The notes under the pieces were generated by a model that was not told the origin of the DNA, did not search any database, and worked only from the letters and a program-made list of their open reading frames with translations. A DNA stretch of 23,845 bases from a virus. Shown here one piece after another: positions 1,261 through 21,869 of this stretch (position 1 is its first letter; the number at the start of each line of letters is the position of its first letter). The DNA lies in the IMG/VR virus record IMGVR_UViG_3300032242_002150, positions 1-23,845 of that record; one strand, 5' to 3'. Made by a program: the position numbers and the translations under genes.

Positions 1261-3018
1261 TTAGCTAGTCAGACCACTTAGTCTGCGGATAGCTTCCATC
1301 TGCTTGTTATCGCTGTGCTTTTGGATCAAATAGTTACATAGCTTCTCTGCAAGCTCGCCTGCTGAATCGCCATACTTAACGCCAATGTGCGTAGCAACAC
1401 CGGTCTCGCCTCTTGGGAAAGCACCTGCGATTGGATCAAACATTGATTTTACCACTTCTGCGATTTCTTTGATTGGCAATGGTCCTGCTTCGGATTCTTC
1501 ATCTAAGCCTGCGCCGAACCCTGTTTGATCTTGACCTACTCTACCACTCTTGGCCATACTTTTGTATTTGGCAACATCTGGATCTACTTCATCCTCGCCT
1601 TCTTCACTGCCCATGTCCATAGGTGGAGCTGGTTTTTTATACTTTGGATCTAGTCCTGTATCCTTGCTTTGTCCAGTTACACGTTCCCATGCTTTGGTTA
1701 TTTGATCAAATGGTAAACCTAAGTAGCCCAGTGTATTTTCAAATTCTTTTTCTAGTTCTGGAGTAGGTTGTACCTCGCCTGCCTTGATTGCTTTATTAAG
1801 ATCTACGATATATTTCATTGTTTCGTGTTTTTCTTCTGGAGTTTGATCTCCGCTTTCACGAACTAGTTTAGCAGGACTAAATGGATCTAATTCATCTGTC
1901 CATGATTCAAACGCTTCGAAAGCTCCTTCCTTCTTAGCTTCTTCATTTCCTTCACCGTGTACTGGGCATTCATCTTGTCCGCCTTCCATATCACAGGTGC
2001 ATGTTTCTTTAGCTTCGCCTACTAGGTCTTCGAGTTCGACTACGCTTGTTTCATGCATGATACCATTTAGCAATGGAAAGTATTGAGCTAGATCATCTTT
2101 AAATGAGCTAATTGTAAATTTAGACTTAAAATCTGCTAAGGTAGTTTCGTCTAGTTCTGTTACTTGAACCAGTGGAGAAGAATCTAATGACTCCATCCAT
2201 GCTTCGTAATTCTTCTGTTTACCAATAGCTTCCATTGTATTGCGTAACTGTGTCAATTTGCTACTAGCACGATCTAAAATACCAACAGCTTCTGTTGTTA
2301 AGTTTTGGTTATTACCTACATGACGTTTGAATGAACCTAATTTGATAATATGTTCACTCATCGTTGTTATTGTTTGTCCAGCTTGGTCAAATGGGGTGCC
2401 GCCATTGGCTACGTGACGTTGCATGGCTTTAGCACCGGCTAGATGTATGAATGGATATTTGAAACGTTCACCAGCTTCATTCTCGATAAAGATAGCTTTT
2501 ACGTGACGGCTACGGCCACCAACAACATTTTCATCTACCGCCTTAGAATGGCGCAAAATTAATTTTGTGTTTTCTAGTTTGCGGTAACTGCTCATTGAGC
2601 TACCATAGTAATTTGATTCTTGCATAGCGTTTTCCTGTGGTGATCCATTTTGTGCTAAAAACTGGAAGTCATTTTGATCTAAAAAGTCTTTGCTGATATC
2701 ACGTGCATCAAAACGTAGTAATCTACGTTTGGCAAATCCTCTCATTTCTTTTAAGAAGTCATACCATAAGCCTGCTGACACATGGTCTATGCCTTCTACG
2801 ATTCCTTGGCTGTAAAATACTTTTAAACTGCCGATATTGTTGATACTGATACTGACTCTACCTAGATTATTTCCTTCTAAAATAAAGTCAAAATCAAACA
2901 TTCTGGCTTCTTTAGGGTCTAGTGTAACGGCACCGGATTGATCACCCATCTGTAAATTGGTGAAGCGGCTACGTACTTTGTCGAATAAATCTTGGGCTAT
3001 AATTTCTAGAGCGTTCAT
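1261..3018 (-). CDS. Conserved T4-like phage protein of unknown function (585 aa)
   Basis: I do not recognise a defined function. The N-terminal about 200 residues look folded, with a basic patch EMRGFAKRRLLRFDARD around 91-107 and an aromatic/basic segment around 175-202. From about 335 the chain becomes acidic and probably extended, and a more ordered helical C-terminus follows (about 515-585). Residues 340-354 hold a Cys-x-Cys-x8-Cys-x2-His cluster that could bind zinc. I recall similar proteins in T4-like cyanophages, usually left as hypothetical or structural. The gene lies between gp17 and gp32, with only nine bases separating it from the gp17 stop, and it ends at a terminator. There is no Shine-Dalgarno before the ATG at 3018, but a CATAAATA late motif ends six bases upstream. 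A virion role is a guess from its neighbours. Confidence 0.8.
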   Translation of the reverse strand: MNALEIIAQDLFDKVRSRFTNLQMGDQSGAVTLDPKEARMFDFDFILEGNNLGRVSISINNIGSLKVFYSQGIVEGIDHVSAGLWYDFLKEMRGFAKRRLLRFDARDISKDFLDQNDFQFLAQNGSPQENAMQESNYYGSSMSSYRKLENTKLILRHSKAVDENVVGGRSRHVKAIFIENEAGERFKYPFIHLAGAKAMQRHVANGGTPFDQAGQTITTMSEHIIKLGSFKRHVGNNQNLTTEAVGILDRASSKLTQLRNTMEAIGKQKNYEAWMESLDSSPLVQVTELDETTLADFKSKFTISSFKDDLAQYFPLLNGIMHETSVVELEDLVGEAKETCTCDMEGGQDECPVHGEGNEEAKKEGAFEAFESWTDELDPFSPAKLVRESGDQTPEEKHETMKYIVDLNKAIKAGEVQPTPELEKEFENTLGYLGLPFDQITKAWERVTGQSKDTGLDPKYKKPAPPMDMGSEEGEDEVDPDVAKYKSMAKSGRVGQDQTGFGAGLDEESEAGPLPIKEIAEVVKSMFDPIAGAFPRGETGVATHIGVKYGDSAGELAEKLCNYLIQKHSDNKQMEAIRRLSGLTS

Positions 3019-3024
3019 AATTTA

Positions 3025-3032
3025 TATTTATG
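3025..3032 (-). promoter_or_regulatory. Late promoter motif CATAAATA before the 585-aa gene
   Basis: The minus-strand octamer matches the NATAAATA late motif described for T4-like cyanophages. It overlaps the gp17 stop codon region and ends six bases before the ATG at 3018. With T4 spacing the transcript would start at 3019, leaving a one-base leader. Confidence 0.45.
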
Positions 3033-4614
3033 CTATTCCGCTAATGTAAATGGGCATGGGCATGACTACTTCATCGTCTGGGTGCTCGTTGAATTTTTCA
3101 TAGATAGCAGGATCCCAGTCCTGTAGCTGTACGATCATGCGAATTGCCAGCAATAGCGATAGCACTAGGTCATCGTGATGCCCTGTTTTTGCTTTAAAAC
3201 TAGCCCCGCCGGCAATAAATCCTTTAAGTTCGCTCATAAGAGCTTTGCTGTGTAGTTTAAGGATCTTGTGTTCGATTAGATGTTTTAGTTTGGCACAGGC
3301 GCTTATTTTGGCTTTTTCTGTAGTATTATAGCCCTTGCGGAAACGGCGGATGTGTCCTTTCTTTATTGGCTCGCTAAGGAATAGCCCGGGTATGCTTTCC
3401 TCACCTATTTCGTTGATGCTAACAAGTGCGGCTTCACCAATAGTATTGTTTTCTACAGAATAGTAAATGTTAGCCTGTGTTCCGACCTTTTGACATTCTT
3501 CATTTATAAACTTACAGATATCTCTGAGGATGCGTGCCTGCGCTTGCACAGGAGTCATATTGTGTTGCCATTCTCCTGCTTGCTCAAATGTAGGGATCTC
3601 AATGATCTGTATAGCTGACGGATCTCCACCTGTTCCTAGGCTAGGATCTAGGGATACAATATAGGTCATCCTCGGATCGATGTCTTTATACCAGCGAACT
3701 TGTCCTTGGCGGAATTTAGGTTCTTCCCCTACCATCTCAGCTAGATTAATACTGTTGATTAGAGTTTCGTCATAGATCAAGAATTCACAGCCATACTCAC
3801 GGCGGAAGCGTTCCTCGCCAATGCGACCCATCTCGACCTTGGCCCACTCGTCATCGCGATCCGGATGATCTGACCAGTGGCTTATGTAAGCATGGAATCC
3901 GTTCTCACCTACTTCTCTTTCGTTGCCATGTTCGTCAAACATACGATTAGCGCCAAACCAAATTTCAGCAAACTGATCCTCGTCTGAGTTTGGTGTTGAA
4001 GTTATGATCGCTTTACCACCAGTCGCTAGTGTAGGCGAAATTGAAGTCCAGAATTCTGTGGCAATGTTTGGCGGTACGAATGCGAACTCGTCGCAGTATA
4101 GTAGTGATATAGACATACCACGACCTGTATTTTCTGTTGTTGTTTGTGCTACGATACGTGAACCATTATCAAATTCGATTGACTGTTTATTATAACTTGT
4201 GACGCCGCAACGTATATGATCAGGACATAATTCATATGCATAGCGAATGCGTTGCATAATTTCCTGAGCACCTGTGTACTTGTGTGCCGCTATAAGAATA
4301 GTCTGGTCTGGATTGAACATTGCGTACCATAGCAAGTAACCGACTGCTGTTGTGGTCTTGCCACTTTGGCGCGGCAACATGTTAACATTGAATCGATAAT
4401 TATGTAAACTGTCTACAAGAGCATTCTGATATCCGTAGGCTTGATATTTGATCTTACCTCTAGTTGGATGCTGAATTGAAAAGAAATGTCTTAAAAAATA
4501 TTTGTGTCCATTAGTGGGATCAGTACATTCTTGTAGATCAAGTAAATCCTGCTCGCTAAACTTGACAGTTTTATGAGCTGTTTTGATTAAGGATGTATCT
4601 TTGTTTAATGACAT
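3028..4614 (-). CDS. 17: Terminase large subunit (gp17), DNA-packaging ATPase/nuclease
   Basis: This is the motor that cuts concatemeric DNA and pumps it into the prohead at the portal. The N-terminal ATPase shows a Walker A PRQSGKTT (81-88), a Walker B LLYCDEF with D175 and E176, and a coupling motif STPN (206-209). The C-terminal RNase H-like nuclease shows the acidic triad D323 in SLDPS, E388 in YSVENN and D481/D482 in GHHDD. At 528 aa it is a little shorter than T4 gp17 (610 aa) and complete. The small subunit gp16 lies upstream on the same strand, but two unknown genes separate them. A terminator sits just before the gene, and a GTAAATA motif ends five bases before the ATG with no Shine-Dalgarno. 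Its main message may therefore start at the ATG itself. Confidence 0.96.
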   Translation of the reverse strand: MSLNKDTSLIKTAHKTVKFSEQDLLDLQECTDPTNGHKYFLRHFFSIQHPTRGKIKYQAYGYQNALVDSLHNYRFNVNMLPRQSGKTTTAVGYLLWYAMFNPDQTILIAAHKYTGAQEIMQRIRYAYELCPDHIRCGVTSYNKQSIEFDNGSRIVAQTTTENTGRGMSISLLYCDEFAFVPPNIATEFWTSISPTLATGGKAIITSTPNSDEDQFAEIWFGANRMFDEHGNEREVGENGFHAYISHWSDHPDRDDEWAKVEMGRIGEERFRREYGCEFLIYDETLINSINLAEMVGEEPKFRQGQVRWYKDIDPRMTYIVSLDPSLGTGGDPSAIQIIEIPTFEQAGEWQHNMTPVQAQARILRDICKFINEECQKVGTQANIYYSVENNTIGEAALVSINEIGEESIPGLFLSEPIKKGHIRRFRKGYNTTEKAKISACAKLKHLIEHKILKLHSKALMSELKGFIAGGASFKAKTGHHDDLVLSLLLAIRMIVQLQDWDPAIYEKFNEHPDDEVVMPMPIYISGIA

Positions 4615-4619
4615 GCGTT

Positions 4620-4626
4620 TATTTAC
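4620..4626 (-). promoter_or_regulatory. Candidate late promoter GTAAATA directly before gp17
   Basis: The minus-strand heptamer lies between the terminator T-run and the gp17 ATG, with five bases left before the start codon. It is one base off the NATAAATA consensus. T4 spacing places the first transcribed base exactly at the A of the ATG (4614). Confidence 0.4.
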
Positions 4627-4628
4627 TG

Positions 4629-4656
4629 AAAAAAATAGGCTCCGAAGAGCCTATTT
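4629..4656 (-). terminator. Intrinsic terminator after the 353-aa gene
   Basis: A perfect 10-bp stem (4633-4642 with 4647-4656) closes on a TTCG tetraloop flanked by a C-G pair on the minus strand, a very stable loop. It is followed on the minus strand by seven Ts (complement of 4629-4635). It isolates gp17 from transcription of the preceding genes. Confidence 0.92.
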
Positions 4657-4674: not shown

Positions 4675-5736
4675 TTATTTCTTCTTGAATCGGTCTTTAA
4701 TTGCGCCTTTTTCTTCTTCATCTGCGCCTTCACGTCCGGCCTTTTGTAGTGCTTCAAAACCCTTCTTGCCATACTTTTTAATACCAGTGTATCTTTGTAG
4801 GCCGTTTTCGTTTACAAATTGTTGATAGTCTGACATTAGTTTTTCTGCTAAAGAGCCTGTTTCGTCTGTTGGTTCGATTGCCTCTACTGCATGTGCCTTT
4901 AATGGATTGTCGCCACCACGTGCTGGAGTTTGCTCAAAGTCACGCAGTCTGTTGATAACGTCTGCGAATGAGTTTGGATCGTACGCACGAGTTTGTTCTT
5001 TTGGACTATTGTCAAATAAACGTAATTCTTCAGCTACGTCAAAATCTTCTGGATCTTTTTTGCTTAGTTCATCAGCCATGTCGCGAACTTGATCAGCCAT
5101 TGCGCCTACATCACCGTCAGTTGGGGATTTGTCATCTGGCATGTGATTCATTTGACCTGCGAAATCTGTTTCTTCGTCATCCATAGTGATGTCGCCTGCG
5201 CCAGCGCCGCCGCCTTCTGGTTGCTCAGGGTCAAAACCTTCTTCATCATTTTCGATGCTGTCGATATGACCTAATGCTTTAGCGATATCGCTCATTGGCT
5301 CTTGGTGACCCATTGAACCTGCTGGTTGAGCTGTCAATGGCTCTTGACCTAAGTGGTCTGGAGTACCTAAATGATGACCTGCATCTTTAACGCCTGCTAG
5401 ATTCATGATTTGTGTTAGCATACTTGCTACTTCATCGCCAGTTGCGGCAGAAGCGTTCAAGCTAAAGTTAGCAGTTGGCTTAGATGCCATACCCATTGGA
5501 CCTGAACCCATCATGCCCATTGGACCACACTCGGCTAAACCTTCTGTTAGGCCTGATAGCTTTTGTAGTTCAGCAACACTTAAATGTTCTGTTACAACTT
5601 CTTCGCCTGTGTATTTGTTTAAACCAGTAACTGCATTGTTACCGTTAAATTCTTGTTCTTTTGATTCGGCCTTTACAACGTTAGGATTGTTTGTATCCAA
5701 CTCTGCTAGGCGTTTCATTACGTCGATCATTTGCAT
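4675..5736 (-). CDS. Conserved acidic phage protein of unknown function (353 aa)
   Basis: The function is unknown. The protein is acidic and low in hydrophobic residues, with a Met/Gly-rich stretch GPMGMMGSGPMGM (71-83), His-rich segments around 121-145 and an acidic region about 160-245. It ends in a lysine-rich motif, YTGIKKYGKKGFEALQKAG followed by REGADEEEKGAIKDRFKKK (316-353). A C-terminal block of this kind (KYGKxGxxxLxKAGxxGAxxEE) is familiar to me from hypothetical proteins of marine T4-like phages. AAGGAA precedes the ATG at suitable distance, and the start lies two bases past the stop of the 196-aa gene, so the two are probably translationally coupled. It sits between the terminase subunit genes and is followed by a strong terminator. 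A head-assembly role is only suggested by context. Confidence 0.8.
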   Translation of the reverse strand: MQMIDVMKRLAELDTNNPNVVKAESKEQEFNGNNAVTGLNKYTGEEVVTEHLSVAELQKLSGLTEGLAECGPMGMMGSGPMGMASKPTANFSLNASAATGDEVASMLTQIMNLAGVKDAGHHLGTPDHLGQEPLTAQPAGSMGHQEPMSDIAKALGHIDSIENDEEGFDPEQPEGGGAGAGDITMDDEETDFAGQMNHMPDDKSPTDGDVGAMADQVRDMADELSKKDPEDFDVAEELRLFDNSPKEQTRAYDPNSFADVINRLRDFEQTPARGGDNPLKAHAVEAIEPTDETGSLAEKLMSDYQQFVNENGLQRYTGIKKYGKKGFEALQKAGREGADEEEKGAIKDRFKKK

Positions 5737-5738
5737 AA

Positions 5739-6329
5739 TTATTTCCTTGGATCATAGTCAGATTGTTGTATCGGACTGGTTGTGTTTTCTTTGGAGTCAA
5801 CGTTATAGGTTGCGGCTGACTCTGTGGGAATTTGTTGGCCTTGCTCTTTGCGTTGGGCCTTAATAGTGTCATTCAATGCTTTTACAAAGCTCAAATTGTA
5901 TTCGGTGCCGTAATATTTTTTGCTGTCTACACTAGGAGATTCTGTGTAGTTAGGGTCCTGTAATAGCGTACCTTCGTGAGCCTCTCTAGGAGCCTGATAT
6001 TCTTCTGTTGGTTCAAATGGATTACGAACTACGATTTGATCTCTGCCTATTCTTAAGTTAGCTGACAGATACTCGTGAAGTTCCCACTGCGTAGTTGGAT
6101 AGTCTAGACTTACTTCATAGATGTTAACTTCTGCGTGTTTGATTAATGGGAAATCTAATGGAACACTCTGGATAGGTGTTTTGCCTGCTTTTTTGAAGCT
6201 AGCCACTTGGAACTTGTCAAGTAAAGTTTCTAGTGTTTTTTCGTTATCAGCAGATACATCTCCCGCAATCTTGACTCTGAAGTCATATGTGCGTTTGCTT
6301 TCGGTTAGGTATTCTTTGAATGATCTCAT
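5739..6329 (-). CDS. Conserved phage protein, possible head-targeted structural protein (196 aa)
   Basis: The protein begins MRSFKEYLTES, a short amphipathic start of the kind shared by several proteins of T4-like marine phages. It looks similar in spirit to head-delivery peptides. The next section (about 13-110) looks like a compact alpha/beta domain with a run PLDFPLIKHAEVNIYEVSLD. I recall close relatives in cyanophages annotated only as hypothetical. The C-terminal half is polar and probably flexible. The ATG at 6329 has AGGAAA upstream, and a late motif AATAAATA precedes that leader. The gene lies between gp16 and the 353-aa gene, both on the same strand, which fits a packaging or capsid role without proving it. 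Confidence 0.75.
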   Translation of the reverse strand: MRSFKEYLTESKRTYDFRVKIAGDVSADNEKTLETLLDKFQVASFKKAGKTPIQSVPLDFPLIKHAEVNIYEVSLDYPTTQWELHEYLSANLRIGRDQIVVRNPFEPTEEYQAPREAHEGTLLQDPNYTESPSVDSKKYYGTEYNLSFVKALNDTIKAQRKEQGQQIPTESAATYNVDSKENTTSPIQQSDYDPRK

Positions 6330-6346: not shown

Positions 6347-6838
6347 TTATTTATTCATATTTTTAAGTTTTTCCAGGAGGCTGTTACGGTCAGAAATGAC
6401 GTATCCTTCCCCTTCAACTATGCCGCCGTCAGTTCCGGGGCCGCTTTTCTTGTCTATTGCCAGCTTTTTAAGCTGTAGATCTATCATCTTTAATTTTTTA
6501 TCAATTTTGTTAGATTTAGCTGTTATTGCGGCCTGTAACATAGTTCCTGCTACTTCAAACATACGTGCTCCGTATCGAGCTTCTACATTCATGCCTAAAT
6601 CCATTAGATCGTCATAGGCTTTTTCGGCTTTGGACGCTAGGCCATCTAGTTCTTGATCGCTCATATCCCCTAGCCCTTTTACTTGCGGTAATGCGGCTGA
6701 TATCTTATCAAACTGTTCTAGGTTTTGTTGTAGATCAACATGCTGTACTTGTGTCATATCCAAGGTTTCTGGCTTGACAACGGGCTCTGCCTTTTTAGTA
6801 GGTTCGATGTTGAGAATTTCTTCGAGCTTTTTAGTCAT
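6347..6838 (-). CDS. 16: Terminase small subunit (gp16)
   Basis: This 163-residue protein matches the size of T4 gp16 (164 aa) and the central helical core of its cyanophage relatives. The core runs from SKAEKAYDDLMDLGMNVEAR (about 69-88) through a helix RMFEVAGTML to KIDKKLKMIDLQLKKLAI, forming the helical hairpin through which gp16 oligomerises. A flexible segment and the final DRNSLLEKLKNM helix follow. Gp16 recognises viral DNA and regulates the gp17 motor. The gene is eight bases downstream of gp4 with no strong Shine-Dalgarno, suggesting coupling. In many cyanophages gp16 directly precedes gp17; here two unknown genes intervene. Confidence 0.85.
   Translation of the reverse strand: MTKKLEEILNIEPTKKAEPVVKPETLDMTQVQHVDLQQNLEQFDKISAALPQVKGLGDMSDQELDGLASKAEKAYDDLMDLGMNVEARYGARMFEVAGTMLQAAITAKSNKIDKKLKMIDLQLKKLAIDKKSGPGTDGGIVEGEGYVISDRNSLLEKLKNMNK
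6348..6355 (-). promoter_or_regulatory. Late promoter motif AATAAATA before the 196-aa gene
   Basis: The octamer on the minus strand overlaps the stop codon of gp16. Its spacing leaves a short leader containing AGGAAA before the ATG at 6329, a normal promoter-leader-ribosome site arrangement. Confidence 0.55.
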
Positions 6839-6846
6839 AACTTTAC

Positions 6847-7287
6847 TTATCGCTTTTTACTGCCTGTATGGAAAATATCTGCCTCTGTTAACACCCTAAA
6901 AGTAAGCCCACGACCTCTAGCCCATTGTCTAGCCATTTCCCACTTGACTTGATTACGAACAAACTGTCCTTGATTGTAGGGATTTTTTCCAACATTTTCA
7001 ATCATGGTTTGATTGGCGGGTTTAACTTCCCAAATCTCAGAGTGTTTCTTTTGCTTTTTATCAACATAAACAACAAGAAAGTCTGGAACGTAAACTGTTT
7101 GTTTTCCAGTCAACGGATCTCTATAGGGAATTTTAACTGCTTCGCTGGCCCACTGTTGTATAGATTCGTTTTCATCGCACATCTTCATGACAGCGGCTTC
7201 CCAGCTACTACGATAATATGGAGTACCTCCACCTACGTACTTTTCTGGATTCTTGAGTATGTAGGGGCCACGTGCTGTATTTCTCAT
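6847..7287 (-). CDS. 4: Head completion protein gp4, TnsA-like nuclease fold
   Basis: The 146-residue protein resembles T4 gp4, which finishes DNA-filled heads before tail joining. Family landmarks are the NPEKYVG start region, YYRSSWEAA (24-32), KIPYRDPLTGK (52-62), VPDFLV (67-72), EIWEVKP (84-90) and the C-terminal NQVKWEMARQWARGRG helix. E30, D69, E87 and K89 form the pattern expected of a PD-(D/E)xK or TnsA-type endonuclease site, so it may trim protruding DNA. Its ATG shares one base with the stop codon of the preceding 124-aa gene (TAATG), indicating coupled translation. gp16 follows eight bases downstream. The nuclease activity is inferred from the motif only. Confidence 0.85.
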   Translation of the reverse strand: MRNTARGPYILKNPEKYVGGGTPYYRSSWEAAVMKMCDENESIQQWASEAVKIPYRDPLTGKQTVYVPDFLVVYVDKKQKKHSEIWEVKPANQTMIENVGKNPYNQGQFVRNQVKWEMARQWARGRGLTFRVLTEADIFHTGSKKR

Positions 7288-7663: not shown

Positions 7664-9418
7664 TTAAAAGTCGTAATAGTCTTGTGCGGCATTTTCTGTA
7701 CCTGTAGTACTATCTGTCTTGGCTTGTAGGTTAGCATCTGCGTTAACTCCAACATTTAAATTGGCATTAGGATCTTTCGGTCCTTGTGTGTTATCGTCTT
7801 TCGCCACCGTCGGATTCTGTGCGATTGTCTGATTTGCATTTTTCAATGCTGTCTCGACCAGTGCTTGATTGTTTTGCAATACTGTAAGATTAGCTTGTAA
7901 TTTTGCAGGGTCTTGATAACCATTAGATGCATATTGATTACTAAATTCATCAGCCGCGGCTTGCCCGCCTATAGCCAATTGTTGAGCGTATGTGGTTTTA
8001 TAAACTGCTTCTTTACTCTGCGCATCTGATATCTGTGTCTGTAGTAACGAAAGTTGATCTTGATTCGCGGCAGATAATGATTCTAATTCGGCTACATCGG
8101 TTGGTAATAGATTTGGATCAAGAGGACTAAATCCAGCCACTACAGCACCAGTAGCCGCGACTTGGGAAGTTGCTCCACCTGGGGAATCAGTAGTTGCTCC
8201 ACCTGCTAAAACGGATCTAGGTGCCGCATTATTTTCGCCGTTAGTACTACTGTTATTGCCCCTAAACAAACTCAAGGCGCCTCCTACTACTCCGCCACCA
8301 ATTCCTACAGGAGAACCAGAAGGTATGTTGCCCTTGTTACCTATAGTACCTAATACCCCGCCTAGTATGCTGTAGCCTTCTGCCTGTATGCCTGCTGAAT
8401 TTAATTTACCAATATTTCTTGCTAGATTAGCCGCGCCTAGGGCAGTGCCTAATATGCTTGTAGGACCTGTATCACTGCCACCGAAAAGTTCTTCTGCGCC
8501 TGCAATAATTCCGCCAGGGCCAAACAGCGTACCAGTACCGCCGCCTTGTATACTCAAAGGACTTGGTGTAGTATCATAATGGAACGTTGCGAATCCTGGA
8601 GGATGATCCCTTCTTACACGCCCCTTGCCATAGAATACAGTTTCGTATTGGATAGTCATTTTGTTTTCTGAAAAACTAGCCTGCGACTGATCTAGGTGTG
8701 CATGATCCCAAGACGTTACTAATGGATTGACTAGTATATAGGAATTAAAGACATGCCTATTGAGTTGATAAAGTATGATCGCTTTAAAAAATGGTTCGCC
8801 CTGATTATTGTTTAAACCATATGCATTGGGCGGAACTGGAGTAGTTGCTGAATATTTTGTATTACCGTAAGCAGGATTAGTTGCGTTCTGTAGGTCATCG
8901 GAAGTTGGACTGCTGGCACTTGCATAGGTACTATCTGCATAGTAATATCTAAAATAATTTTGCCATAGATCATTAGTAACGTTGCTCATGTCATCATGAA
9001 AACTAATAGACACTGGCTGATAATTTATTTTTGTTTGTACAACTGTTTTGCGATTATATTGATTCAGCTGTTCTGTTTGAATTTGAAACTTAGGTAAGTC
9101 TGCGGCTTTGACTAATAGTCCTGCTTCTAAGTTTTGATTTTTGCCGTTATTAAAAATGCCTTTGGTGTTTGCACCGCCTAGCACTTGACCAATCGTACCT
9201 AGCAAACTTCCTGTTCTTTGATCGGATCCGGCGGATATTTGCGTTTGCGCTCTAGGATTAATAACCAGGAACGCATAATACATGTGCCCTGTCTTAGGAG
9301 TCAGAGAGTATAGATTGTCTCCATATAATCTAGCGGCATGTTGGAAGTCGCCTAGGGTTCCTTTAGGATGAGTAGCACCCGAAAAGACACCAGTGAGAAA
9401 GTCAGTAATATTTGGCAT
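7664..9418 (-). CDS. Putative tail-tube/baseplate-type structural protein (584 aa)
   Basis: The start is taken at the ATG at 9418. A longer frame back to a TTG at 9529 would run through the gp19 end and a terminator and is unlikely. The N-terminal about 270 residues look like a tail-tube-type domain: KTGHMYYAFLVINP (42-55), LPKFQIQTEQLNQYNRKTVV (108-127), PVSISFHDDMSN (135-146) and a late beta segment MTIQYETVFYGKGRV (254-268). This order is reminiscent of gp19/gp54-like proteins of T4 phages. A Gly-rich region (about 292-390) and a Gln/Ala-rich, probably coiled-coil segment (about 440-535) follow. The location straight after gp19 supports a tail role. No Shine-Dalgarno is present, and a CTAAATA motif ends four bases before the ATG. 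The exact T4 equivalent is not certain. Confidence 0.65.
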   Translation of the reverse strand: MPNITDFLTGVFSGATHPKGTLGDFQHAARLYGDNLYSLTPKTGHMYYAFLVINPRAQTQISAGSDQRTGSLLGTIGQVLGGANTKGIFNNGKNQNLEAGLLVKAADLPKFQIQTEQLNQYNRKTVVQTKINYQPVSISFHDDMSNVTNDLWQNYFRYYYADSTYASASSPTSDDLQNATNPAYGNTKYSATTPVPPNAYGLNNNQGEPFFKAIILYQLNRHVFNSYILVNPLVTSWDHAHLDQSQASFSENKMTIQYETVFYGKGRVRRDHPPGFATFHYDTTPSPLSIQGGGTGTLFGPGGIIAGAEELFGGSDTGPTSILGTALGAANLARNIGKLNSAGIQAEGYSILGGVLGTIGNKGNIPSGSPVGIGGGVVGGALSLFRGNNSSTNGENNAAPRSVLAGGATTDSPGGATSQVAATGAVVAGFSPLDPNLLPTDVAELESLSAANQDQLSLLQTQISDAQSKEAVYKTTYAQQLAIGGQAAADEFSNQYASNGYQDPAKLQANLTVLQNNQALVETALKNANQTIAQNPTVAKDDNTQGPKDPNANLNVGVNADANLQAKTDSTTGTENAAQDYYDF

Positions 9419-9422
9419 GAAG

Positions 9423-9429
9423 TATTTAG
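9423..9429 (-). promoter_or_regulatory. Candidate late promoter CTAAATA directly before the 584-aa gene
   Basis: The minus-strand heptamer lies between the gp19 terminator and the ATG at 9418. It is followed by CTTC and then the start codon. The same CTAAATACTTC 11-mer occurs before gp18. T4 spacing puts the first base of the transcript within one base of the ATG. Confidence 0.4.
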
Positions 9430-9433
9430 CCGT

Positions 9434-9464
9434 AAAAAAAGACCCAGATAAAACTGGGTCTTTT
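9434..9464 (-). terminator. Intrinsic terminator after gp19
   Basis: A perfect 11-bp stem (9437-9447 with 9454-9464) containing GACCCAG/CTGGGTC closes on a six-base loop. It is followed on the minus strand by a run of seven Ts, four of which also form the base of the stem. It lies 18 bases past the gp19 stop. Confidence 0.92.
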
Positions 9465-9482
9465 GTGTGGTATTGCCTAAGA

Positions 9483-10109
9483 TTAACCTGTAGCCAATGA
9501 ACCCAATGTACGTCCAACGTTTGTACCAATACCGATTGGATTGCCTGCGGTATCTGTTTGGATAGCGTTGTCGAACTTGATAGATAAACTGATATCTAGT
9601 GCTTCAGAACTTGAATAGTCAACTTGTTGATATGTAGCGTCTGTTACATAGCAACCAAGCAATTCAAATGTCTCAAGTACTGCTGGTTCAAATGCACCGT
9701 TACCACCGTCAAGGATTTCGATAACTGTAGTGAACTTGTAGTCGATACCTGAACTTGCTGATGCCTGCTCATAGAAGTCGAACTGCTTCTGGATCTGTTC
9801 GCCTACTAGTTTGCTAACTGCACTTGATTGATCATCACGTATTACAAGTGTGATCGGATCCCATGTGTGCTTGCCAGCATAGTTGATCTTTGAGTTGTAA
9901 ACATGTAATTCCATGTTTTCAAACTGAACCTTTGGACGAGTTACGTTCATTACCTGCTTGGTGATTTCAGTTGTTGGCTTTGTAACACCAAAATTCTGTA
10001 ACTGAACTCTAAAGCGATATTTCAGCTTTGGCATCAACAAGCCTTGGCTCATTGCGCTCTGACCTGCCGGTAGTGGAACTGATAATTTACTTAAACTTGC
10101 GATTGCCAT
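9483..10109 (-). CDS. 19: Tail tube protein gp19
   Basis: This 208-residue protein is the subunit stacked into the inner tube of the contractile tail, through which DNA passes. T4 gp19 is 163 aa; marine relatives are near 200. Recognisable parts are LKYRFRVQLQNFG (29-41), the MNVTRPKVQFENMELHVYNS stretch (53-72), YAGKHTWDPITLVIRDD (76-92) and the late FELLGCYVTDATYQQVDYSS segment. The ATG at 10109 has a strong AAGGAG site, and a TTAAATAC late motif stands further upstream in the gap after gp18. Its own promoter and strong terminator make it a single-gene transcription unit as well as part of read-through from gp18, consistent with the high copy number of the protein. Confidence 0.95.
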   Translation of the reverse strand: MAIASLSKLSVPLPAGQSAMSQGLLMPKLKYRFRVQLQNFGVTKPTTEITKQVMNVTRPKVQFENMELHVYNSKINYAGKHTWDPITLVIRDDQSSAVSKLVGEQIQKQFDFYEQASASSGIDYKFTTVIEILDGGNGAFEPAVLETFELLGCYVTDATYQQVDYSSSEALDISLSIKFDNAIQTDTAGNPIGIGTNVGRTLGSLATG

Positions 10110-10131: not shown

Positions 10132-10138
10132 TATTTAA
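10132..10138 (-). promoter_or_regulatory. Late promoter motif TTAAATA before gp19
   Basis: The motif lies in the 33-base gap between gp18 and gp19 on the minus strand. It is followed at suitable distance by an AAGGAG ribosome site and the gp19 ATG. It is one base off NATAAATA. Confidence 0.45.
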
Positions 10139-14645: not shown

Positions 14646-15431
14646 TTAGCCTACTACAAACCACATGGGTTTTTCGCCAGTTCCATAATTGTTAATCTCC
14701 AAATCTAATTTTTCGATCATGGCGTTACCTTCTGTTTTGAGTTGGGTACCGTTGAGAGTAGTACCACCTTGTGGGCTGGTAATTTGATTGAACTTTTCGC
14801 GAGCTTCGCCTAGCATGAGTTTGCAAGTGGCTAGCGTATAGTCCTTGATCCATAAACCAGCATATGGATCATCTAGTAAAGCAAAATCTGGACGATGATT
14901 ATACAACCATAACAGCACAGTTTCTTCACCGCGTGGTCGTTGCATGATAGTCAGCTTGCGAGTCTGCGGATGATATGTAAATTGAATGTAACTACCAAAC
15001 ATTTTACCTACCATTTTTTGGTACTGAGCAAACGCATAGTAAGTTGCAAGGCCACCCATGTTGCTAGATGACAGCAAATAGGTATTTGTATAGGCTAAGT
15101 TAAATGGTTCAAATAGTGTGCCGCCATCGCCACCGCCTGTTCTACTACCGATGCTTCTACGGAAAACATCGCGAACTTCAATAACTTCGTTGCTTAGGAT
15201 GTATTCGTTTTGGTCCTGCTCTAGAGTCAAATATCCGTAGCTTTCTTCTACTGAATTAGCACTACGCTGACGATAACGAGATAGTGCGCGATCTATTGCG
15301 ATATTATAGTCTTTTGGTTCAAGCTCAACATCGATCATGCTTCCGCCTAAAAGCGACTTTACATAGTCAATTATCTGCTGACGGACTGGTGTTGTATCAT
15401 TAACAGGGTTGGGTGTATTAGCTGTGCTCAT
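14646..15431 (-). CDS. 13: Neck protein gp13 (head completion/tail joining)
   Basis: This 261-residue protein resembles gp13 of T4-like cyanophages (T4 gp13 is 309 aa), which with gp14 forms the neck to which the tail attaches. Landmarks are the helical start VRQQIIDYVKSLLGG (16-30), VELEPKDYNIAIDRALSRYR (35-54), an EVRDVFR segment, and the C-terminal GLWIKDYTLATCKLMLGEAR. A GGTTLNGTQLK stretch and a final FVVG follow. The start at 15431 faces gp14 across 28 bases. There is no Shine-Dalgarno, but GTAAATA ends five bases before the ATG, so T4 spacing would make the transcript start at the A of the ATG. gp13 and gp14 being on opposite strands is unusual, since they are normally adjacent and co-directional. 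Confidence 0.9.
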   Translation of the reverse strand: MSTANTPNPVNDTTPVRQQIIDYVKSLLGGSMIDVELEPKDYNIAIDRALSRYRQRSANSVEESYGYLTLEQDQNEYILSNEVIEVRDVFRRSIGSRTGGGDGGTLFEPFNLAYTNTYLLSSSNMGGLATYYAFAQYQKMVGKMFGSYIQFTYHPQTRKLTIMQRPRGEETVLLWLYNHRPDFALLDDPYAGLWIKDYTLATCKLMLGEAREKFNQITSPQGGTTLNGTQLKTEGNAMIEKLDLEINNYGTGEKPMWFVVG

Positions 15432-15436
15432 ATGAT

Positions 15437-15443
15437 TATTTAC
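15437..15443 (-). promoter_or_regulatory. Candidate late promoter GTAAATA before gp13
   Basis: The minus-strand motif ends five bases before the gp13 ATG. It is separated by one base from the plus-strand TATAAATA of gp14. Confidence 0.4.
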
Positions 15444-15444
15444 C

Positions 15445-15452
15445 TATAAATA
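15445..15452 (+). promoter_or_regulatory. T4-type late promoter TATAAATA for the gp14-gp15-Nudix operon
   Basis: A perfect octamer followed by C ends seven bases before the gp14 ATG. T4 spacing puts the start site at 15458, a two-base leader. It is the only promoter-like signal seen for this plus-strand operon. Confidence 0.65.
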
Positions 15453-15459
15453 CACTACT

Positions 15460-16677
15460 ATGCCAAGACTATCCCTTTACCGCCCCGAAAAAGGCAATGA
15501 TTTTAAGTTTTTAGATCGTGTAATTAACGAGCAATTTCAAGTGGGCGGCACTGACATTTATATCCACAAATATTTGGGCCACGTAGATCCTGCTACAGGA
15601 GAAGCTACACCTGCTACACCTAATAATTCAAACCCGATTCCAGAACTGGGTATACAAGATGTCTTATTGATGGAAAATCGTGATAGACACTACGAGCCTA
15701 ACGTATACATCTTGCGCGGCATTTACCAAATGCAAGATCTAGATTTTAATCTTAGTCAGTTTGGCCTATTCTTAAACAATGATAATATTATGTTACACTT
15801 CCATCTAAGTGGATGTGTAGAAACTCTAGGACGTAAAATCATGGCAGGTGATGTTCTAGAATTGCCTCACTTGAAAGATGAATATGCTCTAGATCAAAGT
15901 CTTATCGCCCTAAAGAGATTTTATGTTGTTCAGGAAGTAGCTCGCCCTACTAACGGATTTAGTCAAACTTGGTATCCGCATCTAGTTAGAGCCAAATGTG
16001 CTCCGCTAGTCGACACACAAGAATACAAAGAAATACTCGATACTGTACAAACAGATGCTGACGGAAATAGTACCGGCAGTACCCTACGTGATCTTATATC
16101 AACCTACAATGCTAGTATCGCTACAAATAATGCTGTGATACAACAAGCCGAATTAGATTCGCCAGCTAAAGGATTTGACGACAGTAATCTTTATGTAGTT
16201 CCACTAACTTCAGATGGTACTGTTGATTTGCAAGACGTAAGCGACACCAGCATCGATAATACTAATTGGGAAAACATGGATGCTTCTATCGTATTGAGAA
16301 GCCCCGATCATACATACTTTGTCAAGGGCGCAGGGGAAGGCGGAGTTCCCCCCAACGGAGCCAAATACAGTGCCGGAATTGAATTTCCGCCGCACCCAGT
16401 CAAAGGTCAATTCCACTTACGCATTGACTATCTACCGAATGTGCTGTTTAGATTTGACGGTGCGATATGGGTCAAGTTTGAAGACAAGGTCCGAATGACT
16501 CTAGATGAGTTTGGTACACAGGATGTAGCACCTGGCAAGCCTTTCGCAGGAAAAGAAGTGAGACGTACTCAGCTATCAGGATACATAAACAATGCTACGA
16601 CTGCAACTATTGGCGGTAGTGTTGTCAAAGAACGCCAGAGTCTAAGCAAAGCGTTAAAACCAAAGGCAGATAACTAA
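15460..16677 (+). CDS. 14: Neck protein gp14
   Basis: This 405-residue protein resembles gp14 of T4-like marine phages and is longer than T4 gp14 (256 aa). The N-terminal part has SLYRPEKGNDFKFLDRVINE (5-24), with VGGTDIYIHKYLG then EPNVYILRGIY. The middle carries FGLFLNNDNIMLHFH (101-115) and a GDVLELPHL segment, corresponding to the GDLIYFP region of T4 gp14. The extra C-terminal part includes GQFHLRIDYLPNVLFRFDGA followed by IWV (316-338). That is a tryptophan motif of the kind also seen in gp18 and gp15 of this phage. Gp14 forms the neck with gp13 and receives the tail. Its stop overlaps the gp15 start (TAATG). There is no Shine-Dalgarno before the ATG, and a perfect late promoter lies seven bases upstream. 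Confidence 0.9.
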   Translation: MPRLSLYRPEKGNDFKFLDRVINEQFQVGGTDIYIHKYLGHVDPATGEATPATPNNSNPIPELGIQDVLLMENRDRHYEPNVYILRGIYQMQDLDFNLSQFGLFLNNDNIMLHFHLSGCVETLGRKIMAGDVLELPHLKDEYALDQSLIALKRFYVVQEVARPTNGFSQTWYPHLVRAKCAPLVDTQEYKEILDTVQTDADGNSTGSTLRDLISTYNASIATNNAVIQQAELDSPAKGFDDSNLYVVPLTSDGTVDLQDVSDTSIDNTNWENMDASIVLRSPDHTYFVKGAGEGGVPPNGAKYSAGIEFPPHPVKGQFHLRIDYLPNVLFRFDGAIWVKFEDKVRMTLDEFGTQDVAPGKPFAGKEVRRTQLSGYINNATTATIGGSVVKERQSLSKALKPKADN

Positions 16678-18170: not shown

Positions 18171-18592
18171 GCATAATTTGTAGCGGCGGATTATTCCTAA
18201 GCAAATCAACTAAGAAATTTTTAATACTACACAGATCAGAAGGCAAAACTGCTAGAACATGGGGTATTGTGGGCGGCAAACACGAGCCCAACGATCAGAC
18301 TCCCTATGAAGCACTATGTAGAGAGATCCGAGAAGAAATTGGATTTTTACCAGAAATAGAAAAGACTATACCCTTAGAGCAGTATGAAAGCAAAGATGGT
18401 ATATTCTATTATCACACCTATGTGTTGCTCGTCCAAGACGAATTTATTCCTCGTCTAAATCACGAACATTCAGGATATGCATGGGTTGAAAATGAGTGCT
18501 GGCCAAAACCGCTACACTCGGGCCTTAGAACTACACTCAGTAGCAAGACCAATCGAGCTAAAATCTCAACTATAATTGATTTATTGAATTAA
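18167..18592 (+). CDS. Nudix hydrolase
   Basis: The start is set at the ATG at 18167, which overlaps the gp15 stop as ATGA. A TTG five codons earlier is less likely. The 141-residue protein carries a Nudix box, GGKHEPNDQTPYEALC followed by REIREEIGF, with the REIREE core intact. The loop before RE is one residue longer than in classic MutT, and aspartate stands where MutT has the first conserved Glu; both occur in some Nudix subfamilies. The family hydrolyses nucleoside diphosphates linked to another group: damaged dNTPs, ADP-ribose, NAD, capped or polyphosphorylated nucleotides. The substrate cannot be told from the sequence. The C-terminal SGYAWVENECWPKPLHSGL is the usual Nudix back strand. 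As the last gene of a neck operon it would be a late gene. Its stop overlaps that of the opposing oxygenase. Confidence 0.88.
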   Translation: MSIICSGGLFLSKSTKKFLILHRSEGKTARTWGIVGGKHEPNDQTPYEALCREIREEIGFLPEIEKTIPLEQYESKDGIFYYHTYVLLVQDEFIPRLNHEHSGYAWVENECWPKPLHSGLRTTLSSKTNRAKISTIIDLLN

Positions 18593-19179
18593 ATGTCGTC
18601 GGCGATTAGATTGAAGCTGATGCTGATTCTATCTTCTTCAGATAAATTCTCTTCCACTCCATGATCTAACCAACTTGGGAAAGCTATAAACATTCCAGGT
18701 ACAGGTTGGAAACTATAACTCTTGTAATTATATTCTGCATCTTTGGCGCTATAGAAGTGCTGGCGTGCCGCAAGATTAGGATTGACGAATGTTATCTTTC
18801 CAGAACGCGGCGGAGTTTTAACATATAGAGTGCAGGCAAAAACACTACGTGGATGTATATGAGGAATCATATACGAGCCGGGAGGATTTACATTTACCCA
18901 GTAGTTGAGTAATTTTAATTTTGTAACGGACTCATAGTCCTTGATTAATGCACTAGTACAGCGTTCTATTATAGGCATTAGGACAGGATGAGCGATAGTA
19001 AGAACTTTACTGCTACCGCCACCACCGCGCTTGCTTGAAATATCTAGATTAGGCTGTGTTTGCACTACCTCTCTAGAAAACTTTTCTAACTCCTGTATTT
19101 CCTGTTCAGACAGATCATTTTTGATGGTCCATACAGGAGTAGGAAAAATATTACTTAACTTGAGATCAGATCCAACCAA
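18589..19179 (-). CDS. Putative 2OG-Fe(II) oxygenase-like protein (TIGR02466-type)
   Basis: The 196-residue protein resembles the small putative 2OG-Fe(II) oxygenases found in marine phages. It opens IFPTPVWTI (11-19). Its core has YWVNVNPPGSYMIPHIHPRS (93-112), then TLYVKTPPRSGKITFVNP, GMFIAFPSWLDHGVEEN (162-178) and RISISFN (184-190). H107 or H109, H173 and R184 are the candidate Fe and 2-oxoglutarate ligands. The usual HxD is HxH here, as I recall for this family. Such enzymes hydroxylate proteins or small molecules. The start is a TTG at 19179: an in-frame stop lies nine bases upstream, no ATG occurs until residue 68, and GAGG lies nine bases before the TTG. It overlaps the end of the 220-aa gene by 14 bases. 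The substrate is unknown. Confidence 0.7.
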   Translation of the reverse strand: MVGSDLKLSNIFPTPVWTIKNDLSEQEIQELEKFSREVVQTQPNLDISSKRGGGGSSKVLTIAHPVLMPIIERCTSALIKDYESVTKLKLLNYWVNVNPPGSYMIPHIHPRSVFACTLYVKTPPRSGKITFVNPNLAARQHFYSAKDAEYNYKSYSFQPVPGMFIAFPSWLDHGVEENLSEEDRISISFNLIADDI

Positions 19180-19855: not shown

Positions 19856-20539
19856 TTATTCTGACCTTGCTATCTTATCCTGTGAGCCGTCTGAATTAAA
19901 TTTAATCAGCGTTTCTTTGTCAGGAACTGATCCTAACTGTGGCACAGGGATATACGCGGCCATTTCATTTGTAATCTTCAATGCTTCCTGTAAGGTCACA
20001 TGGAAGATCTCTTCTGGTAGATCTAGCATCGCCTGTAGGTTACCGGTTGAAATTCTTCCAGTTGACACAATGTCTAATCCTGCTTGACGACCTAAACGTT
20101 TGACCCAGTAATCAATTTCTAAAGTGTCTTTCATAGAAAGAAGTTCAGCGATATCAAAATTCTGATTAAAGTATTCTAATACTTCGTAGAATGTCTCTAA
20201 TTCGTTTCTGATACGTTTTACTTCTTTTACACTTAGGTAAATTTTTTCTTCTAAGCTGTGAATTTCGAGATCGATTTCCATTTGATACAATGGATCGACT
20301 TCTCTTTCACGCTTTCTTTTTAAGATCTCAATTTTAAGTTGATTCTTTTTATCTTCGTATTCTGTTTTACGTAAATTTTCTTCACGTACTTCTGCTTCCA
20401 TAACAACCTGTTGAAGTTGTTTGATAGGTGTTAGCTGTGCTCCAACAACGAATTGTTTCATTTGGAAGTCGCTCATGCCCCTCGGCAATGCTTCAACTAA
20501 CTCAGCTATTTTCCAGTCTTTCTTTTGATTTGATTCCAT
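19856..20539 (-). CDS. Coiled-coil protein of unknown function, conserved in marine T4-like phages (227 aa)
   Basis: I do not recognise a biochemical function. The N-terminus has WKIAELVEALPRGMSDFQMK (9-28), followed by FVVGAQLTPIKQLQQVV. A long, highly charged helix runs from about 45 to 120 and looks like a coiled coil. Near the C-terminus a YWVKRLGRQAGLDIVSTGRI stretch is followed by a GNLQAMLDLPEEIFHVTLQE motif. A similar layout (long helix, then YWxxRLxxxAxxDI and GNLxAxLxxPEE) occurs in hypothetical proteins of cyanophages and related phages. The ATG has AAGG upstream and lies inside the halogenase C-terminal coding region, overlapping it by 38 bases. The two are thus probably made from one message. 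A structural or adaptor role is a guess. Confidence 0.7.
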   Translation of the reverse strand: MESNQKKDWKIAELVEALPRGMSDFQMKQFVVGAQLTPIKQLQQVVMEAEVREENLRKTEYEDKKNQLKIEILKRKREREVDPLYQMEIDLEIHSLEEKIYLSVKEVKRIRNELETFYEVLEYFNQNFDIAELLSMKDTLEIDYWVKRLGRQAGLDIVSTGRISTGNLQAMLDLPEEIFHVTLQEALKITNEMAAYIPVPQLGSVPDKETLIKFNSDGSQDKIARSE

Positions 20540-21869
20540 TTTTTAACCTTATCTCTGTTATGTATCTATAATGATTTGGCAACATTTTTTGTGCTAGATA
20601 AACCTGAACCTTAGCATCCTGTGTTAATTTAGGATAGTAATGATCTTCTCCAAATCCTCTTAGCAATTCATTCCATTGAAAATAAGGATAACCGTTATCG
20701 AGATTATCTTCCTTCGTTGGATATTTATATTTAAGAGAGTGCCAAAAATCCTGGAAGTCTTTTGAGTCGCGGGCGGCCTTACTAGCGGCTACCCAGAATG
20801 GCTCTGTACGACGACTAAAAGCATAATGGCCTAGTACAACAACTTTGATGTAACGTATTCTTGCTTGTATTTCTGAATTGGCCCACACATGATTTCTACG
20901 ACCTGCTATTACTTCTACAGCGTATTCTATGGTTTTACCTGCAAGATGTATAGCTGTAGCTTCCAGCGGCTCTATGAATCCACTGCTCATACCAGCCGCG
21001 ATGATATTGCCTTTGAATATTTCTTTGTAATAGCCCGGATGCATTGAGATTTTTCTAGGATTCTCTATTCCTGTAGCACTGGCAAACTCTGCTCGAGCAT
21101 CCTCATCGCTGATAAACTGACTACTGTAAATGTAACCGTTTCCAGTCCTATCATAAACAGGTATCTTAAAGCGCCAACCTGCTGTCATTCCTATGCTTGA
21201 TGTAAAAGGTTCGTATTCTTTTTCGGGATTAGTATAGGTCTTTTGCCCTACTATGGCAGTATCTACTAGGAGTTCCTTAGCATAGCTTTGGAATTGACTA
21301 GATGTTTTTCCTATCAATATTCTCTTAAATCCGGAACAGTCTACAAACCAATCTGCTTCAATACTGGTACCGTTGTCTAGGGTCACGCTTTTACAATTAT
21401 CATTTTCTATTTCTACATCTGTTATATCTGCGTGGATTAATTCTACACCCTGATCGGTACTGCGTTTTTGTAGCAGATCTGCAAGTTCCGAAGCTACGAA
21501 ATGACAACCGTGTGTGCTATCTTCATATAACCAAGGACATTTATTATTATTACCCACAGCCGCTGTTAGATCAGTACCCCATGTTTCCCATGCAGGATCG
21601 GTAGATAGCCAAAAAGGTGCATCGGCAAAATCTATAAACTTGATACCTAATTTAACTCCACCACCAGTGAGTGCAATTAGTTCTGTGGCTTTGACGCCTA
21701 GATCATTCAGCAGTTTCATTATGCTAGGCCAAGTGCCTTCACCTACACCGATTGTAGGTATGTTAGGACTTTCAACTAACTGTATTTGATAATTGGGGAA
21801 TTTTTTAATAAGATAAGCGGCAGAAAGCCAACCAGCTGTTCCACCGCCTACGATGCATATCTTCTTCAT
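20502..21869 (-). CDS. Flavin-dependent halogenase (tryptophan halogenase family)
   Basis: This 455-residue protein belongs to the tryptophan halogenase/PrnA superfamily, which uses FADH2, oxygen and halide to halogenate an aromatic or other electron-rich group. The Rossmann start KICIVGGGTAGWLSAAYLI (3-21) contains the family GxGxxGW motif as GGGTAGW. GVGEGTWP (41-48) is the second FAD contact. K73 in GGGVKLGIKF aligns with the catalytic lysine of PrnA (K79). The EPLEATAIHL segment (300-309) matches the EPLES region. The WxWxIP signature reads WRFKIP (232-237), with Phe for the second Trp. A cyanophage member (VirX1 of Syn10) is known to halogenate, with iodide preferred. A separate flavin reductase is normally needed and none is visible here. 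It lies just downstream of fibre genes and is co-directional with the oxygenase. The substrate is unknown. Confidence 0.88.
   Translation of the reverse strand: MKKICIVGGGTAGWLSAAYLIKKFPNYQIQLVESPNIPTIGVGEGTWPSIMKLLNDLGVKATELIALTGGGVKLGIKFIDFADAPFWLSTDPAWETWGTDLTAAVGNNNKCPWLYEDSTHGCHFVASELADLLQKRSTDQGVELIHADITDVEIENDNCKSVTLDNGTSIEADWFVDCSGFKRILIGKTSSQFQSYAKELLVDTAIVGQKTYTNPEKEYEPFTSSIGMTAGWRFKIPVYDRTGNGYIYSSQFISDEDARAEFASATGIENPRKISMHPGYYKEIFKGNIIAAGMSSGFIEPLEATAIHLAGKTIEYAVEVIAGRRNHVWANSEIQARIRYIKVVVLGHYAFSRRTEPFWVAASKAARDSKDFQDFWHSLKYKYPTKEDNLDNGYPYFQWNELLRGFGEDHYYPKLTQDAKVQVYLAQKMLPNHYRYITEIRLKNGIKSKERLENS

Follow-up and report, generated by a model that had tools for sequence, protein, structure and literature searches.

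Many uncultured T4-like phages of aquatic origin, which form a large group, and one cultured marine phage share a layout that differs from that of T4: in about a third to half of their genes with a late promoter, the box stands five bases before the start codon, and transcription probably starts on the first letter of the coding sequence, leaving the message without a ribosome-binding leader. Judging from the sequences, it is likely that gp55-type late promoters placed on start codons constitute a lineage-specific class of leaderless late messages, gp17 included; the messages are predicted to be leaderless because the late promoter lies five bases before the start codon. This reading draws on direct observations, namely the sequence itself, a conserved spacing, bimodal box distances, a contrast in Shine-Dalgarno (SD) sites, a gp55 homologue and restriction to certain lineages. 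The stretch of DNA analysed here (the window) is a 23.8-kb fragment (23,845 nucleotides) of an uncultured T4-like phage, and the junction in front of its gp17, which was noted first, is one member of this putative genome-wide class. The junction contains the following features.

4675-5736, minus strand: upstream gene of 353 aa without a family match (open reading frame and family search).
4629-4656, minus strand: intrinsic terminator with a 10-bp stem, TTCG loop and 7 T (sequence, fold, stem covariation in relatives).
4656-4647 and 4642-4633, minus strand: terminator stem arms, AAATAGGCTC and GAGCCTATTT, respectively (sequence).
4646-4643 and 4635-4629, minus strand: TTCG loop and T run of 7 T, respectively (sequence).
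4628-4627, minus strand: CA between the T run and the box (sequence).
4620-4626, minus strand: T4-type late promoter box GTAAATA, five bases before the ATG (sequence, conserved spacing), made up of G 4626 and the core TAAATA 4625-4620.
4619-4615, minus strand: spacer AACGC, followed by the gp17 ATG at 4614-4612 (sequence).
4614, minus strand: predicted transcription start, the A of the gp17 ATG (T4 box numbering and the pyrimidine-purine step in leadered promoters).
3028-4614, minus strand: large terminase subunit gene, gp17-like (phrog_36964, E 2e-117; 80 relatives at 64-90% identity).

The match of 3028-4614 to terminase large subunit families bears out the name gp17 given in the original prediction, and the minus-strand terminator described there (10-bp stem, TTCG loop, seven Ts) was correct in its elements and coordinates by sequence and fold. 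GTAAATA was likewise found five bases before the ATG as described, but the T run is separated from it by two bases, CA, and not by three. The hairpin has a folding energy of -14.4 kcal/mol (z -2.9), equally good folds occurred in 3 of 200 shuffles, and the junction shows the G+C hairpin followed by a T run that characterizes intrinsic terminators. No SD site was found before the gp17 ATG, again in line with the original prediction. A later gp17 start with a hidden leader is ruled out, because no other in-frame ATG, GTG or TTG lies between the upstream in-frame TAG and the gp17 ATG and coding conservation begins from residue 1-6. A chance box is also ruled out by shuffles and distance statistics: TAAATA is rarer in the window than expected (15 observed versus 27.6 in shuffles), while five copies lie 4-7 bases before gene starts where about 0.05 are expected (P ~2e-9). 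These boxes, a variant box and two leadered comparators are as follows.

3025-3030, minus strand: TAAATA 6 bases before ATG 3018 of the virion structural gene 1261-3018 (close in 65 of 68 relatives).
9423-9428, minus strand: TAAATA 4 bases before ATG 9418 of the tail-tube-like gene 7664-9418, behind a T run.
15437-15442, minus strand: TAAATA 5 bases before ATG 15431 of the head-tail adaptor Ad2-like gene 14646-15431 (sequence).
15445-15452, plus strand: TATAAATA 7 bases before ATG 15460 of the divergent virion structural gene 15460-16677 (sequence).
6844-6849, minus strand: variant box TAAGTA 5 bases before ATG 6838 (TAAGTA peaks at 5 in relatives).
6348-6353, minus strand: leadered comparator; ATG 6329 of gene 5739-6329 is preceded by TAAATA at 18 bases and, in the interval, by an SD-like AGGA.
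10132-10137, minus strand: leadered comparator; the tail-tube ATG 10109 has TAAATA 22 bases upstream and AAGGAG in the interval.

TAAGTA stood exactly 5 bases before the ATG in 12 of its 16 matches in relatives. For the tail-tube-like gene, the mechanical open reading frame 7664-9529 (minus strand) opens at TTG 9529, 111 bases upstream of the likely start; the true start is probably ATG 9418, because a terminator-like T run and TAAATA 4 bases away precede it. If the close class is real, this gene illustrates a warning for gene callers that start sites lacking an SD can be genuine in these phages.

T4 late transcription is a textbook system with SD-led messages, and the TAAATA box is the known gp55 site. 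T4 late promoters (TATAAATA, used with gp55, gp33 and gp45) share with the present junctions the core box, the lack of a -35 element and the predicted start register. The TATAAATA-like box at the -10 position of this group retains the TAAATA core but differs from T4 at -13/-12, which are not TA, and TAAGTA is also used. A gp55 homologue (phrog_12791, E 1e-77 to 1e-87) was identified in 6 of 11 long contigs of the group, while none was seen in the window, a 23.8-kb fragment; a search for gp45 with phrog_223 matched none of the records, nor any control. In T4 the late box occupies -13 to -6, the first base of the 8-bp box being -13 (PMC2988020), so with five intervening bases +1 falls on the A of the ATG, which agrees with the start proposed in the original prediction.

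The junction was compared across 80 terminase loci picked by protein similarity alone, which gave 49 distinct junctions. TAAATA or TAAGTA lay 4-6 bases before the ATG in 46 of the 49, and exactly 5 bases before it in 39; 25 different spacers occurred among the junctions with a conserved box. The alignment of relatives that had been suggested at the outset thus showed the box-to-ATG spacing to be conserved even as the letters within it change. Of the three exceptions, L069 arose from the choice of start; measured from the conserved ATG, its box too lies at 5 bases. In junctions with a T run ahead of the box, the hairpin sequences differ between relatives, and in 12 stems aligned in register every base pair was kept, three variable pairs having changed on both sides (16 double-change cells versus 0-2 in slid controls, the rows having been picked with the stem in register). 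The distance from T run to box was 3 bases in 23 of 29 junctions (range 2-4) and that from box to ATG in junctions with a T run was mostly 5 (range 4-8). Since both distances are near constant, terminator, box and ATG are held in register as one module, and part of the spacing rigidity may be inheritance of the whole module, as the T-run-to-box distance is also fairly constant. The module alone does not fix the spacing, an explanation ruled out by a tail-like cyanophage family with the same terminator and TAAATA, in which the spacing varies freely from 8 to 21 bases.

We then surveyed the distance from TAAATA to ATG in 82 related loci (822 kb, 452 nonredundant open reading frames of at least 90 aa). 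The 166 boxes found were distributed bimodally: a close group spans 4-9 bases and peaks at 5 (81 of the 166 boxes), 107 boxes lying at 4-7, and a more distant group occupies 15-27, while distances of 10-14 did not occur. Reordered hexamers, used as a distance control, gave no peak of their own beyond motif overlap. The distance class was gene-specific: the box was close in the terminase gene (64/80) and the next gene (65/68), and the structural gene like 5739-6329 of the window was leadered (13-30 bases) in 54 of 60 relatives. An SD motif was present in 1 of the 107 close genes, against 38 of 49 among the leadered ones and 78 of 205 among the rest; nearly all close genes thus lack an SD, as leaderless mRNAs do. 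The group would accordingly possess two kinds of late promoter, one 15-30 bases upstream with an SD leader and one at 4-7 bases without room for an SD. That TAAATA-N5-ATG instead acts near start codons as a translation signal or DNA element, or simply results from upstream TAA stops, is scarcely credible: the upstream stop codon does lie inside some boxes, but it is not involved in divergent pairs or behind terminators, the same box at 15-30 bases has an SD in between as expected of a promoter, and the box corresponds to the gp55 site in a group where gp55 is present.

The start register can be read from the leadered promoters, which are free of coding constraint. In these, T or C accounts for 60% at position 5 after the box and A or G for 76% at position 6; in the close class, position 6 is the A of the ATG and T or C stands at -1 in 99%. 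Because leadered promoters favour a pyrimidine-purine step in the same register, initiation at the A of the ATG is supported. Boxes also occur at 6, 7 and 8 bases from the ATG, those at 6-7 predicting leaders of 1-3 nt rather than none, and spacers of 7 bases have an A at position 5 in 83%. Such cases would suit a start a few bases upstream that leaves a leader of 1-4 bases, near-leaderless in function and not exactly leaderless, which as a general account we regard as quite improbable given that the dominant class is exactly 5, with its pyrimidine at -1 and the A of the ATG at the expected +1.

In the leaderless reading, the gp17 junction would act as a terminator-promoter module. The hairpin would end transcripts arriving from the upstream gene, host RNA polymerase carrying a gp55-like late sigma factor would recognize the T4-type late promoter with its TAA(A/G)TA core, and the new message would start at, or within about a base of, the A of the gp17 start codon, to be translated by direct recognition of the 5'-terminal AUG. 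The exact start base, the termination efficiency and the mode of translation are the steps that we infer.

The main rival accepts the box as a late promoter but holds that gp17 is mainly translated from read-through messages, by SD-independent initiation (S1, A/U-rich) or coupling, the leaderless message being minor. About half of the close junctions are without a clear hairpin (only 24 of 46 passed a simple test), so transcripts of the upstream gene may read through in many relatives; the upstream stop codon overlaps the box in some junctions, the region is A/U rich and neither message has an SD. Yet read-through leaves both the spacing fixed at 5 and the gap at 10-14 unexplained, a strong terminator precedes the box in the window, and divergent pairs have no co-directional gene upstream. 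In the window, the gap between the Ad2-like connector gene and the divergent gene next to it measures 28 bp and holds two boxes, 5 and 7 bases from their ATGs, and the same arrangement with different letters and lengths was found in four relatives (G001, G006, G011 and L188), the gaps in the five phages being 22-30 bp. So short a gap has no room for a leader of usual length, whose first base would have to lie within the opposite gene. On balance, we consider read-through unlikely as the main source of gp17 and prefer leaderless messages. Back-to-back late boxes, forming a compact bidirectional late promoter, were also seen in the 22-30 bp gaps of further divergent pairs at L089:7261-7288, L460:8543-8578 and L467:12313-12344.

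Long relatives showed the same two classes. In the 328-kb relative G006, one of 33 close genes and 25 of 45 leadered genes had an SD, and G001 and G011 showed the same split; the close genes of G006 include those for terminase, tail tube, tail fibre, an Ad2-like connector and a virion protein, together with a homing endonuclease-like gene and unknowns. When the raw pattern was counted at 4-7 versus 8-11 bases, the result was 52:17 in G006, 17:7 in G001 and 17:5 in G011, against 16:18 in T4, 9:19 in CBB and 22:25 in 121Q. A general T4-like trait is ruled out, since neither the whole genomes of T4, S-PM2 and PA5oct nor the CBB and 121Q counts showed enrichment. T4, whose late boxes usually stand 12-31 bases from the ATG with an SD between, has 32 at 12-35 bases and none at 4-7, which fits the caution in the original prediction that T4 is not known to use leaderless late mRNAs. 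PA5oct, a Pseudomonas phage and the closest cultured match to the window terminase (53% identity), has one box at 4-7 bases. The late promoters of cyanophage S-PM2, NATAAATA (PMC2984593), belong to the same box family and serve a T4-like late gene set; unlike the present group, S-PM2 has no box at 4-7 bases.

In the cultured pelagiphage HTVC008M, 13 boxes stand 4-7 bases from the ATG, 10 of them at exactly 5; a single box falls at 8-11, and the 12-15 range is empty. SD sites are nearly absent from its close genes and present in 8 of 10 leadered late genes; its deposited start codons coincide with the close-box ATGs, those of baseplate, head closure and DNA end protector genes included, and gp025/gp026 form a divergent pair with back-to-back boxes. 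HTVC008M differs in belonging to another phage family (Kyanoviridae) and in its own gp17, whose reading frame overlaps that of the gene upstream and is not preceded by a close box. Together with Ca. Pelagibacter ubique, it offers a cultured pair for testing.

A scan of IMG/VR with T7-N3-TAAATA-N5-ATG returned 80 loci, in 68 of which the ATG opens a reading frame of at least 60 aa or one running off the contig end; about half were terminases of the same phage group. In a control scan at spacing 9, 39 closed reading frames reached at least 60 aa; a single cyanophage family, in which the spacing varies freely, supplied many of them. In the IMG/VR sample, L213, L215 and L331-L395 represent a family starting ...NRNFLSPTGFKF, with a terminator, TATCTAAATA and a mostly SD-less leader of freely varying length.

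Leaderless mRNAs are familiar elsewhere: lambda cI is transcribed from PRM without a 5' UTR or SD. Mycobacterial leaderless genes likewise have neither, with the AUG at or near the 5' end (PMC4633059). Compared with these, the predicted messages would be driven by a phage late sigma factor and would serve many structural genes of a lytic T4-like phage. Our literature search found no paper joining leaderless messages and T4-like late promoters; a start-site study of Syn9 (10.1038/ismej.2015.210) fell outside its coverage, which leaves the absence unproven. If the reading is correct, a lytic phage can depend on leaderless translation to make its structural proteins, which bears on the tuning of translation late in infection. 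More tentatively, and with the odds against it, the late programme may be two-tier, the genes with SD leaders and a leaderless set (packaging motor, connector proteins) being tuned separately in translation, perhaps with a ribosome altered late in infection. The ribosomal protein bS21, a subunit located at the anti-SD site (PMC9723584), is encoded by G006 (G006:C1:151809-151964), HTVC008M, PA5oct, Atu_ph07 and Phosso. Phage bS21 as a simple cause is unsupported, as PA5oct, Atu_ph07 and Phosso encode it without comparable enrichment.

Matches to metagenome-assembled genomes comprised one Methylophilaceae bin and one Euryarchaeota bin, too weak for naming a host; the former holds a related terminase on a contig of 89 kb (CAJIZS010000002.1) assigned to an uncultured Methylophilaceae bacterium, which hints weakly at a host. 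The window also encodes a 2OG-Fe(II) oxygenase (18589-19179, minus strand) and a tryptophan halogenase-like gene (20502-21869, minus strand) with TAAGTA 5 bases upstream of its ATG, and HTVC008M too carries a halogenase and an oxygenase, in its case next to the terminase.
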